From Carboxylicivirga sediminis (GTDB lineage: Bacteria > Bacteroidota > Bacteroidia > Bacteroidales > Marinilabiliaceae), in contig NZ_JAGTAR010000018.1 of the NCBI RefSeq assembly GCF_018156225.1, positions 1 through 64,000 on the forward strand: a DNA stretch of 64,000 nucleotides, written 5' to 3'. The notes under the pieces are model-generated. The model was given only the letters and a program-made list of their open reading frames with translations, made no database searches and had not been told where the DNA came from. The position numbers were made by a program, and so were the translations under genes. Positions 45,298 to 48,408 of this stretch are shown in pieces; position 1 is the first letter of the stretch; the number at the start of each line of letters is the position of its first letter.

Positions 45298-45354
45298 TAT
45301 TAATTGCCAGTTATTCTAAGATAAAGCCGTTGTTTGACGTTTTGTAACTAAAAA

Positions 45355-45372
45355 TTTCGTTTGTAAACGAAA
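45355..45372 (+). promoter_or_regulatory. Candidate BlaI-type operator palindrome
   Basis: TTTCGTTTGTAAACGAAA is a perfect 8-bp inverted repeat around GT. It lies 7 bp upstream of the -33 element of the promoter, and a further half-site-like AAACGAAA occurs between the two promoter boxes. Assignment to the BlaI-type repressor encoded just downstream is an inference. Confidence 0.6.
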
Positions 45373-45379
45373 AAAATAG

Positions 45380-45409
45380 TTGGTAAAACGAAATAGTTAG
45401 TTATATTTG
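45380..45409 (+). promoter_or_regulatory. Promoter of the BlaI/M56 operon
   Basis: TTG at 45380-45382 and TATATTTG at 45402-45409 are separated by exactly 19 bp, matching the Bacteroidota TTTG/TAnnTTTG promoter pattern. The start codon of the repressor is 42 bp downstream. Confidence 0.7.
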
Positions 45410-45451: not shown

Positions 45452-45823
45452 ATGATTTCGAAACGATTAACAAAACGCGAGGAAGATGTGATGAAGATAT
45501 TATGGGAAGCAGGCAAGGGATTTGTAAAGGATTTGCTAAAGCAGCATCCGGAGCCTAAACCGCACTATAATACCTTTAGTACTATTATTCGCGGTCTCGA
45601 AGAGAAAGGGTATGTGGCGCATAATTCATATGGCAACTCCCATGAATACTATCCTGCGGTTAGCAAGGAGGCATATCGTAAGTTGTTTATTAAGAATGTG
45701 GTGTCGGATTACTTTGAGTCATCTTACAAAAATGTGGTATCCTTTTTTGTGAATGAGGATAAACTGAATGTAGATGACCTGAAAGAGTTAATTGAATTAA
45801 TTGAAAAGAAAAAACAAGACTGA
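45452..45823 (+). CDS. BlaI/MecI/CopY-family transcriptional repressor
   Basis: This 123-residue winged-helix repressor has the N-terminal recognition region LTKREEDVMKILWEAGKGFV, FSTIIRGLEEKGYVAHNSYG in the wing, and a helical dimerisation tail (SFFVNEDKLNVDDLKELIEL). In known systems BlaI-type repressors are cleaved when the partner M56 membrane protease is activated. Here the partner is the next gene, whose start codon overlaps the repressor stop by one base (TGATG), so translation is coupled. Upstream is a palindrome over the predicted promoter that it could bind. No beta-lactamase gene is nearby. Confidence 0.94.
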   Translation: MISKRLTKREEDVMKILWEAGKGFVKDLLKQHPEPKPHYNTFSTIIRGLEEKGYVAHNSYGNSHEYYPAVSKEAYRKLFIKNVVSDYFESSYKNVVSFFVNEDKLNVDDLKELIELIEKKKQD

Positions 45824-48408
45824 TGAATGCTTTTCTCGAACTGCAATTAAAGTCCGCTATTATTATTGCGATATCTGTACTGGTGTATTTGGTGTTTTTG
45901 GCGCGCGATAGTTTTTTTCAACGTAACAGAATTTGGTTATTAACCACCTTGTTTGTACCATGGTTGATGCCATTATTGGCCATGCCCCTGTGGTTGAAAG
46001 AATTGTTGTTTAAGCCTGAAATTAATACTGAGCCGTTGGCATTAACATTTGATGTGCCTGTGACAGAAATAGTGGCAGCGCCCGCTCCAACTCCTATTAA
46101 CTGGACAAACTGGGGACTGGGATTTTATGCAGTGGTGAGTTTATTTTTTCTGATGCGCTTGTTATGGGGATATTACAGTATCAGTCGCTTAAAGCAAGGT
46201 GCGCGTGTTAGCTCTTACAAAGGTTACCAGCTAGTATTGCTTAATGATGGTGATGTTAATCCCTTTTCATTTTTCAAAACCATTTTTATGCCCGCTCATT
46301 TGGAGAGAAACAAGCATGGGCGTATGATTTTGGAACATGAACGCACACATTGTGCACAGTTGCACTCAATTGATATATCCCTGGCCGAATGGTTATTGGT
46401 AGTGCAATGGTGGAATCCGTTTGTTTGGTGGCTGCGTAAGCTGATAGCTCAAAACCATGAATATTGTGTTGACAACGCGATGGTGCAAAAAACAAAGGAA
46501 CCACAGGCTTATCAGTATTCGTTGCTGAATTTATTGCAAAGCAACAGAGGGGTGCAATTGGTGAATAACTTTAATCAAAGTTTAACGAAAAAACGAATTG
46601 TCATGATGAATAAAAAACATACCAGCCTGATAATTGGATGGACAAAGAACCTGCTGCTGATTCCGCTTTTGGGCTTGGCTCTGCTGGCTTTCACCAATCC
46701 AGATAAGACAGAGAAAAAGGCTAAAGAGGTAGTTAAGATAGAGAATACAACTGATTTAAGAAATGCGATTGCACGCAGCATCAAATACCCGCTGGTGGCA
46801 AGAGATAGAGGCGTTGAAGCTACAGTGACGGCCAATTTTAGTGTCAATAAAAAAGGCAAGATTACTGATGTAGCTATTGGTAGCAAACCAGGGGCTGTTA
46901 AACTTGAAAATGTGGTGGTGGTTGCCTATGCCGGTGAAACAGAGAATGCCAAGCAAATGGAGGTTTCACCGGATGATGGCAATAGAGCCTTGGAGGATGA
47001 GGTGGTAAGGGTTGTGCAAAAGCTCCCCCAAATTCATGATCCTGCACTTCTTGGCAAGCAATTGCAAATGGATTTTGAATTCAAGCTGCAAAGTAAAGTA
47101 AGCAAAAACGATAGTAGCCGCGCAGATGAGTGGGAAGGACGAACAACTAAACTGACCAATTCTAAAGGAGAGGAGTTTGCCCTTGTAGCTACAAATGGAC
47201 GTATAAAACTGGATGGACCAGCCAGCAATCAACCTGCTTTAATACTTGATGGCAAGGAAGTATCCATGAAGGAAATATCAGCTTTGGATTTGAATGAGGT
47301 AAAAGCCATTGGTCATTCGCCTGCTGGCAATCCACTTAAGTTTCTTCCATCAACACCCGAAAATGGGGCCTTTATTATACATACAGAAGCTTTTCTGGCT
47401 GAAAAAATAAAGGCTGGCAAGGCTTATGCATCAAGTGAACCTTCAATGTATATTGTTGATGGCAAGGAGGTAGATAAGGAAGTGTTTGGTAAGATTGCTC
47501 CGGATCAGATTGCAAGTGTGAATGTACTTAAAAATAGCGCTGCAACCGATAAGTATGGCGACAAGGCTAAAGATGGTGTTGTTGAGGTCACAACTAAAGG
47601 CAATGCAGAGTCAATGCCATTCTTTAAATCAACGGATAAGGTGAAGATTAGCTCCATGAAATTAAGTGTGACTGCCGATAATGGTGAAACTCCACTATTT
47701 GTGGTTGATGGAAAAAAGCAGGAAAAGAGCGAGGTGGATGAGAAAGATATTGAGTCAATAACCGTGCTTAAGGAGCAGTCAGCTATTGATTTGTATGGAG
47801 AAGAAGGCAAGAATGGGGTGGTTAATATCAATACGAAAAAGGGAAAGTCACTTGATATGCTCAAGGATGGTGGAGTAAAGATCAACACCACCAAAGACGA
47901 TCCGCTTTATATTGTAGATGGTAAAAAATACTCGGGAGGTGGAGCTGTCAACGCTAAGGATATTGAATCAGTTAATGTTCTTAAAGGTGATGCAGCGATT
48001 GATTCGTATGGCGAAGAAGGTAGAAATGGGGTTATTCTTATCAATACTAAAAAAGGAACGGTTGAGCATGATGATGTTGTAGTATCTGCTGAAACGGTTG
48101 ATATAAAGCCTAACGATGCTGATGAGGTAGTAGTGGTTGGTTACGGTTCGATGAGAAAGGGAAATTCATCTACGATGGATAATATTCTGGTTCGTCGAGG
48201 AGAAAAGGCAGAGACTGTTCGAATTAAAGGAATGTCGGGTGATCAGCAGCCCTATGTTATTTTAGATGGTGAGGAATACACAGGTTCTATGGAAGATTTA
48301 GATTCTGAAAAGATTCAATCCATCTCAGTCTTAAAAGATCAGGCAGCTGAATCGCTTTATGGAGATAAGGGCAAAAACGGCGTTATCATCATCGAATCGA
48401 AAAAATAA
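45823..48408 (+). CDS. M56 (BlaR1/MecR1-type) membrane metalloprotease with TonB-plug-like repeats
   Basis: This 861-residue protein has N-terminal membrane helices (about 8-27, 32-52, 90-112), the zinc site LEHERTHCAQLHS (His172, Glu173, His176) with downstream EYCVDNAM, and a further membrane helix near 275-292. The periplasmic part begins with a TonB_C-like domain (about 305-425; VTANFSVNKKGKITDVAIGS). The C-terminal half (about 471-861) holds about five plug-like repeats with YIVDGK, SVxVLK and YGxxxxxGVVxxxTKKG strings at about 471, 540, 623, 693 and 809, and a SusC-like VVVVGYG box at about 768. It forms a transcriptional unit with the BlaI-type repressor. What it senses is unknown. Confidence 0.93.
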   Translation: MNAFLELQLKSAIIIAISVLVYLVFLARDSFFQRNRIWLLTTLFVPWLMPLLAMPLWLKELLFKPEINTEPLALTFDVPVTEIVAAPAPTPINWTNWGLGFYAVVSLFFLMRLLWGYYSISRLKQGARVSSYKGYQLVLLNDGDVNPFSFFKTIFMPAHLERNKHGRMILEHERTHCAQLHSIDISLAEWLLVVQWWNPFVWWLRKLIAQNHEYCVDNAMVQKTKEPQAYQYSLLNLLQSNRGVQLVNNFNQSLTKKRIVMMNKKHTSLIIGWTKNLLLIPLLGLALLAFTNPDKTEKKAKEVVKIENTTDLRNAIARSIKYPLVARDRGVEATVTANFSVNKKGKITDVAIGSKPGAVKLENVVVVAYAGETENAKQMEVSPDDGNRALEDEVVRVVQKLPQIHDPALLGKQLQMDFEFKLQSKVSKNDSSRADEWEGRTTKLTNSKGEEFALVATNGRIKLDGPASNQPALILDGKEVSMKEISALDLNEVKAIGHSPAGNPLKFLPSTPENGAFIIHTEAFLAEKIKAGKAYASSEPSMYIVDGKEVDKEVFGKIAPDQIASVNVLKNSAATDKYGDKAKDGVVEVTTKGNAESMPFFKSTDKVKISSMKLSVTADNGETPLFVVDGKKQEKSEVDEKDIESITVLKEQSAIDLYGEEGKNGVVNINTKKGKSLDMLKDGGVKINTTKDDPLYIVDGKKYSGGGAVNAKDIESVNVLKGDAAIDSYGEEGRNGVILINTKKGTVEHDDVVVSAETVDIKPNDADEVVVVGYGSMRKGNSSTMDNILVRRGEKAETVRIKGMSGDQQPYVILDGEEYTGSMEDLDSEKIQSISVLKDQAAESLYGDKGKNGVIIIESKK

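Follow-up and report, generated by a model that had tools for sequence, protein, structure and literature searches.

In BlaR1 and MecR1 a signal received by the outside domain activates the cytoplasmic protease domain, which results in the degradation of the BlaI or MecI repressor, as described in a review (PMC7593790). Receptor parts are also known to signal to an inner-membrane regulator in the STN-domain receptor and anti-sigma (FecR-type) systems (PMC7782687). The same paper deals with Bt1763 SusC, in which deletion of residues 81-86 (VDEVVV) of the TonB box (DEVVVTG), or replacement of the box by alanine, impairs growth much as a deletion of SusD does; its N-terminal extension is a carboxypeptidase-regulatory-like domain (PF13715). 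In the current analysis a gene pair has been characterised in the first 64,000 nucleotides (the window) of contig NZ_JAGTAR010000018.1 of Carboxylicivirga sediminis (GCF_018156225.1). It encodes a BlaI-type repressor and a membrane protease of the M56 family with a tail made up of parts resembling TonB and TonB-dependent receptors. We tentatively propose, with somewhat less than even confidence, that the two genes form a self-regulated proteolytic signalling system. Its receptor in the periplasm would consist of copied parts of the TonB-dependent transport (Ton) machine, and the system would sense the state of that machine. The genes and the catalytic domain are located as follows.

45452 to 45823, forward strand: gene of a BlaI/MecI/CopY-type repressor of 123 residues (Penicillinase_R 103 bits, Pfam cut-off 22.6)
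45823 to 48408, forward strand: gene of the M56 sensor protease with the plug-unit array, 861 residues; its ATG shares one base with the stop codon of the repressor gene
46282 to 46605, forward strand: M56 catalytic domain, residues 154-261 (Pfam), with the HERTH zinc motif at 172-176 and E213/D217

The 861-residue protein is assigned to Peptidase_M56 (PF05569) with 41.5 bits (curated cut-off 31). Residues H172, E173, H176, E213 and D217 are unchanged in all 17 sequences that were aligned, the window protein among them, and a set of H, E, H, E and D residues is likewise invariant in the 51 M56 proteins of a phylum survey described below. Four hydrophobic helices are predicted from hydropathy (peaks at 9-27, 37-55, 98-116 and 269-287), and the tail follows the last of them in this predicted topology. 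An earlier note on this DNA, made without database searches, had described an M56 protease with a repressor partner, and the profile scores bear out both. The repressor scores below the cut-off of each of the narrower CopY, BlaI and MecI models of NCBIfam. Its identity across the orthologous loci is 77-99%, whereas the tails diverge.

The pair has in common with BlaR1-BlaI and MecR1-MecI the membrane zinc protease domain, the four hydrophobic helices, a C-terminal receptor after the last helix and a neighbouring repressor gene whose product belongs to the same Pfam family; by this analogy the protease probably cuts its partner repressor. The receptor of the window protein differs in consisting of Ton parts and not of a penicillin-binding domain. 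A classical beta-lactam receptor of the BlaR1 type, which the shared protease and repressor families would suggest, can hardly be entertained, as it is contradicted by the domain content: no penicillin-binding sensor domain occurs among the Pfam and NCBIfam matches at E-values up to 1, and the NCBIfam model blaR1_generic, with a cut-off of 400 bits, gives only 19.1.

After the last helix the tail begins with a TonB_C-like domain. One degenerate and three strong plug units follow, and then the TonB box, which precedes the fourth strong unit.

46735 to 47091, forward strand: TonB_C-like domain, about residues 305-423 (Pfam match at 320-358; AlphaFold model; fold search)
46906 to 46929, forward strand: TonB-box-like segment ENVVVVAY inside the TonB_C domain, residues 362-369 (alignment)
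47233 to 47385, forward strand: degenerate plug unit, residues 471-521 (unit profile E-value 1.7e-3 over 471-496)
47443 to 47598, forward strand: plug unit 1, residues 541-592 (unit profile E-value 2.0e-24)
47692 to 47838, forward strand: plug unit 2, residues 624-672 (unit profile E-value 7.8e-23)
47902 to 48051, forward strand: plug unit 3, residues 694-743 (unit profile E-value 7.5e-24)
48121 to 48147, forward strand: SusC-type TonB box DEVVVVGYG, residues 767-775 (aligned with solved SusC; modelled as disordered)
48250 to 48402, forward strand: plug unit 4, residues 810-860, at the C terminus (unit profile E-value 2.9e-24)

The repeats, previously noted as plug-like and about five in number, are recognised by domain profiles. 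Pfam Plug matches the protein with 63.6 bits (cut-off 23.9) over three stretches, and the SusC_RagA signature TIGR04057 of NCBIfam with 130 bits (cut-off 46.2) over four. A profile of the 51-residue unit was built in this analysis, the window's own units being part of the seed. It identifies four strong copies (E-values 7.8e-23 to 2.0e-24) and one degenerate copy, in keeping with the count given before, and has no match in the 51 survey proteins when these are reversed. The strong units share pairwise identities of 37-63%. Each of them covers the second half of Plug only, beginning at Pfam position 40, 56 or 60 and ending at 107. When they are scanned singly, only the last one exceeds the Plug cut-off. 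Longer best Plug stretches, starting at profile positions 9 and 24, are found in two relatives (L043 and L051). The domain DUF7713 is also matched at residues 458-486 with 44.6 bits (cut-off 24.1). It is taken as a partial match to the plug-unit module because it overlaps the degenerate unit, falls to 19.4 bits, below cut-off, when the piece with this unit is scanned alone, and touches units elsewhere as well.

Comparison of the C-terminal 96 residues with solved SusC (u89154; 5t3r and others) aligns DEVVVVGYG, in which a SusC-like VVVVGYG box had been noticed earlier, to the TonB-box stretch, a weak piece by itself (2.1 bits), and the last unit to the second plug half (37.3 bits); a further, shorter stretch lies between these pieces. 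Results of phmmer, Pfam, NCBIfam and the fold search agree in matching the unit to the second half of a SusC plug. The window protein shares with SusC and RagA receptors the TonB box and the second plug half by sequence, and the unit by fold too. It differs from them in lacking a match to a beta-barrel family (none among the Pfam matches at E-values up to 1) and the first plug half, and in having helices of inner-membrane type and units in tandem. The model TIGR04056 gives 173 bits against a cut-off of 368, its best stretch covering profile positions 138-205 of 981. Some sixty matches to the plug units are present in open frames of SusC size in the C. sediminis genome.

The TonB_C-like domain, also named in the earlier note, scores 28.3 bits (cut-off 24.6) over profile positions 3-41 of 79 only, and 36 bits when the piece is scanned alone. 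In the AlphaFold model most of this part and most of the degenerate unit have a predicted local distance difference test (pLDDT) score above 80, and residues 364-369 of the ENVVVVAY segment are modelled as a strand. A fold search with the tail model is led by TonB C-terminal domains, with SusC near the top, the matches being weak (best E-value 7.1e-3). The last unit with its box was modelled separately (pLDDT 61, the box disordered). Here SusC, RagA, Cir and other TonB-dependent receptor plugs lead the fold search (best E-value 2.6e-3, none at or below 0.001).

The TonB_C stretch (window 46699-47115) shows a dS (synonymous substitution rate) of 0.74 relative to the nearest relative, compared with 0.16-0.25 in the other large regions, and is possibly a recombined or swapped domain. 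The same genome also encodes a 209-residue protein (L244:909-1538, C62) which by eye has a signal peptide, a TonB_C domain and one plug unit but no protease; it is apparently the same TonB_C/unit pair free in the periplasm.

Orthologues were collected as 29 open reading frames (ORFs) more than 42% identical to the window's M56 domain. A box-like segment at the TonB_C position (residues 341-400) is found in 18 of the 29 with a loose motif for which no shuffle control was made; several Marinifilum have it in the form DEVVITAY. With a strict TonB-box-like motif and the whole tail searched, 19 of the 29 are positive, as compared with 0.07 expected from shuffles, and so are two of 165 other ORFs (0.31 expected).

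As the outside domain consists of Ton parts, its being read by the partners of such parts is the economical reading. The tail would imitate TonB-dependent receptors through its boxes and plug units, for which TonB would be the partner, and TonB through its TonB_C domain, to which TonB boxes may bind. It could thereby report the amount of free TonB, or that of engaged or unassembled receptors, in the periplasm. The last transmembrane helix would pass binding, or its loss, on to the protease, and the activated protease would cut the repressor, with more synthesis of the repressor-protease pair as the outcome. The variable number of units may set avidity or reach. This composition suggests that the protein monitors the importer machinery of the cell. 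In the STN and FecR-type systems it is the receptor that bears the signalling domain, whereas here a membrane regulator bears receptor-like pieces together with a protease. A loose lead for the Ton-sensing reading comes from P. gingivalis, where a table of genes whose methylation and expression shift together with hemin availability (PMC10470040) includes one for a BlaI/MecI/CopY regulator; the gene numbered next to it encodes an M56 protein.

Among solved proteins the best matches to the unit, in sequence as in fold, are SusC-type and other TonB-dependent receptors, which would also fit a sensor of envelope traffic. Here the units would mimic SusC-type receptors that are unfolded or not yet assembled and so act as decoys for periplasmic chaperones or assembly factors, and a pile-up of clients would free the array and fire the protease with no part for TonB. 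One orthologue (L051, the same as L113) with five units and no TonB_C match is in favour of this explanation. The TonB-box-like segments and the TonB_C domain, both frequent in the family, would be superfluous under it, and we regard it as rather unlikely.

The Ton-sensing proposal has further to account for the variation of the tail. Among the orthologue ORFs 18 carry one to five strong units, one of them (L153) being a fragment; ten, all from Marinifilaceae (L101, L103, L107-L112, L115 and L117), carry none; the remaining one, L116, is truncated at the end of its contig. The unit-bearing ORFs belong to Marinilabiliaceae, except L096 and L106, which have no family label, and L153, which is outside the tree. 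The orthologue tree requires three array changes and has open forks, so that gain and loss are not polarised. Between the window and the Marinifilaceae loci the whole array is lost or gained beside a repressor that stays 84-88% identical. Such variation would be expected if the array were a spacer or a peptidoglycan-spanning stalk made from an available module, its number of units near-neutral and the TonB_C-like domain the sensing part. Other data make this improbable. The array is under purifying selection, as estimated from the ratio of nonsynonymous to synonymous substitution rates (dN/dS) of 0.131, compared with 0.085 for the M56 domain, in one species pair (the nearest relative) by a simple counting method. 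As many as 49 of 57 units match best in another protein and only eight within their own (the count omits the near-identical orthologue L037 and the locus L054), which argues that distinct units are kept. Moreover, a TonB box followed by a plug unit occurs at ten places in nine of the proteins scanned. On the same figures two other views of the array were rejected: its decay, given a dN/dS of about 0.13 in the one species pair, and concerted evolution of the units.

Some of the related loci contain additional M56 genes. Three are found in a row behind one BlaI-type gene in L054 (G058:C11:8000-22000), one of which has two strong unit matches of different make. In two relatives the first M56 gene is immediately followed by a second, shorter copy (L047:10136-11650 and L049:8146-9165); in the latter genome a match in the shorter-copy stretch contains a stop.

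The region upstream of the repressor gene has the following putative elements. The consensus by which the promoter is read is what we take to be that of Bacteroidota.

45346 to 45361, no strand assigned: putative operator site 1, AACKA-N6-TMGTT (direct reading)
45366 to 45381, no strand assigned: putative operator site 2, touching the promoter candidate elements
45387 to 45402, no strand assigned: putative operator site 3, between the promoter elements
45380 to 45409, forward strand: Bacteroidota-type promoter candidate with TTG (45380-45382), 19 nucleotides and TATATTTG (45402-45409) (direct reading)

The sites are of 16 bp each with a spacing of 20-21 bp. Three or four of them precede the repressor gene in 15 of 16 orthologous loci and two in the remaining one (L046). 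Searches were made with the exact consensus only. Each of the 14 genus genomes, that of C. sediminis among them, has exact tandem pairs at the blaI promoter and nowhere else; the reversed pattern gives none. Outside the genus they are found in six of the eight genomes searched, again solely at the blaI-M56 promoter, the other two being without an exact pair. Single sites are not in excess in the own genome (32, against 78 for the reversed control), nor are sites with an A/T spacer in the genus genomes (2-7 per genome, against 3-24 in the control). A distant regulon was accordingly rejected, no second tandem-operator locus having been seen in the 14 genus and eight outside genomes. One similar site recurs as an extra site at a paralogous M56 locus. 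Tandem operators solely at the own promoter, with no excess of single sites, indicate that self-regulation is the visible output; from these searches it appears to be the only one, with a possible link to the paralogous M56 locus. The exclusive position of the tandem operator is a further difference from BlaR1-BlaI and MecR1-MecI.

The restriction of the tandem operator to the own promoter throughout the 14 genus genomes and the lack of excess single sites are also what would be seen if the array itself were the effector. In that case BlaI proteolysis would tune the number of displayed arrays, which would buffer TonB or receptors, and there would be no distant regulon. This is quite improbable in our view, as weaker sites than the exact consensus, or other substrates of the protease, may exist and as one similar site is present at the paralogous M56 locus.

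The neighbouring convergent genes, labelled from sequence with no family search as DUF4249-like and as a TonB-dependent receptor, are retained in only part of the genus and hence are not taken as members of the system.

M56 proteins were surveyed in 61 Bacteroidota genomes, of which 32, own included, have a match over the Pfam cut-off. The survey set consists of all 51 such proteins outside the own genome (31 genomes) and leans to well-scoring M56; one of them (L218) has a stop inside the match and was read up to that stop. Pfam assigns TonB_C to 19 of them, TonB_2 to five, Plug to five, CarbopepD_reg_2 to two, CarboxypepD_reg to two and ExbD to one. Apart from these, only the peptidase families M56 and M48 are matched at E-values up to 0.001, so that all the non-protease families are parts of the Ton machine or of TonB receptors. 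At least one strong plug unit is found in seven of the 51 (range 0-3), and this recurrence on M56 proteins marks the array as an elaboration and not a singularity. At least four strong units were seen in the orthologue family alone when family and survey were scanned. The array had been called unusual, which holds for its length; plug modules on M56 proteins as such are more widespread, as shown by the seven proteins with a strong unit and the five with Pfam Plug. When the whole protein is the query, 58 of 60 genomes give matches, a figure to which SusC plugs and other M56 proteins contribute.

In the own genome, Ton parts occur in four of the five M56 tails examined, the window protein included. 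One of the others (L056:5437-7143, C57) has an ExbD/TolR-like tail just under the Pfam cut-off (24.2 bits, cut-off 25.4) and adjoins its own BlaI-type gene. In another (L057:7326-8969, C45) TonB_C is preceded by CarbopepD_reg_2, the N-terminal domain of SusC type, and a further tail has TonB_C. A sixth M56 match, under the cut-off, was outside the tail scan.

These tails raise the possibility, though a doubtful one, that the Bacteroidota M56 proteases constitute a class for surveillance of the Ton machine. Their tails would copy its parts (TonB, ExbD, receptor N-terminal domain, plug) and read its state through decoy competition, and the window protein would regulate only its own supply. Judged by its domains, the window protein appears to be among the most elaborate examples seen, since a single chain has the TonB side as well as the receptor side of their handshake.

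Several points weigh against the Ton-sensing reading and its extension to the phylum. Binding, the direction of the signal and cleavage are what we infer for the window protein from its sequence. The AlphaFold model of the tail is of low overall confidence (pLDDT 67, predicted template modelling score 0.29) and does not fix the packing of the units. The ten Marinifilaceae ORFs keep repressor and protease with no unit at all; L114, by eye, has units and no TonB_C, as is the case with L051; and L106, by eye, has a carboxypeptidase-regulatory-like stretch at the place of TonB_C. No single tail module is therefore essential. The strict TonB-box motif is rare in distant M56 tails, with five of 55 in another M56 set (0.22 expected) and one of 51 in the phylum sample (0.09 expected). 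The operator search found no target beyond the own operon, which is odd for a sensor. The fifth tail scanned in the own genome (L058:6920-8314, C77) is a fusion of M56 to an M23 peptidase (104 bits) with no Ton part. CarboxypepD_reg domains occur outside receptors as well. Ton parts are also abundant in the phylum, and fusion through their chance availability is possible.

Among the closest known proteins are the Bacteroidota M56-TonB_C proteins, which share the protease and TonB_C with the window protein (19 of the 51 surveyed) and include, as orthologues, the Marinifilaceae proteins of 426-427 residues. They differ in the array, with no units in Marinifilaceae, 0-3 strong ones in the survey and up to five in the window's family. 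No paper describing M56/BlaR1 proteins with plug arrays or assigning them a function was found in the open-licence literature, judged largely from titles, abstracts and term counts; the earlier note had allowed that a function might be assigned already, which these searches do not bear out. Such proteins are also not described in the available text of PMC7593790, PMC10470040 and PMC5613140. The parts are known; what is new is the tandem plug-unit receptor with a tandem operator exclusive to its own promoter.

To our knowledge, how such bacteria match Ton capacity to demand is an open question. The protease-repressor pair with Ton parts is a concrete candidate for the control of Ton capacity, with a short operator and a promoter at hand. 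With the pattern across the phylum, in which all the non-protease Pfam families on the 51 M56 proteins are Ton-system or receptor parts, one odd protein becomes an instance of a rule that can be tested for a class of receptors.

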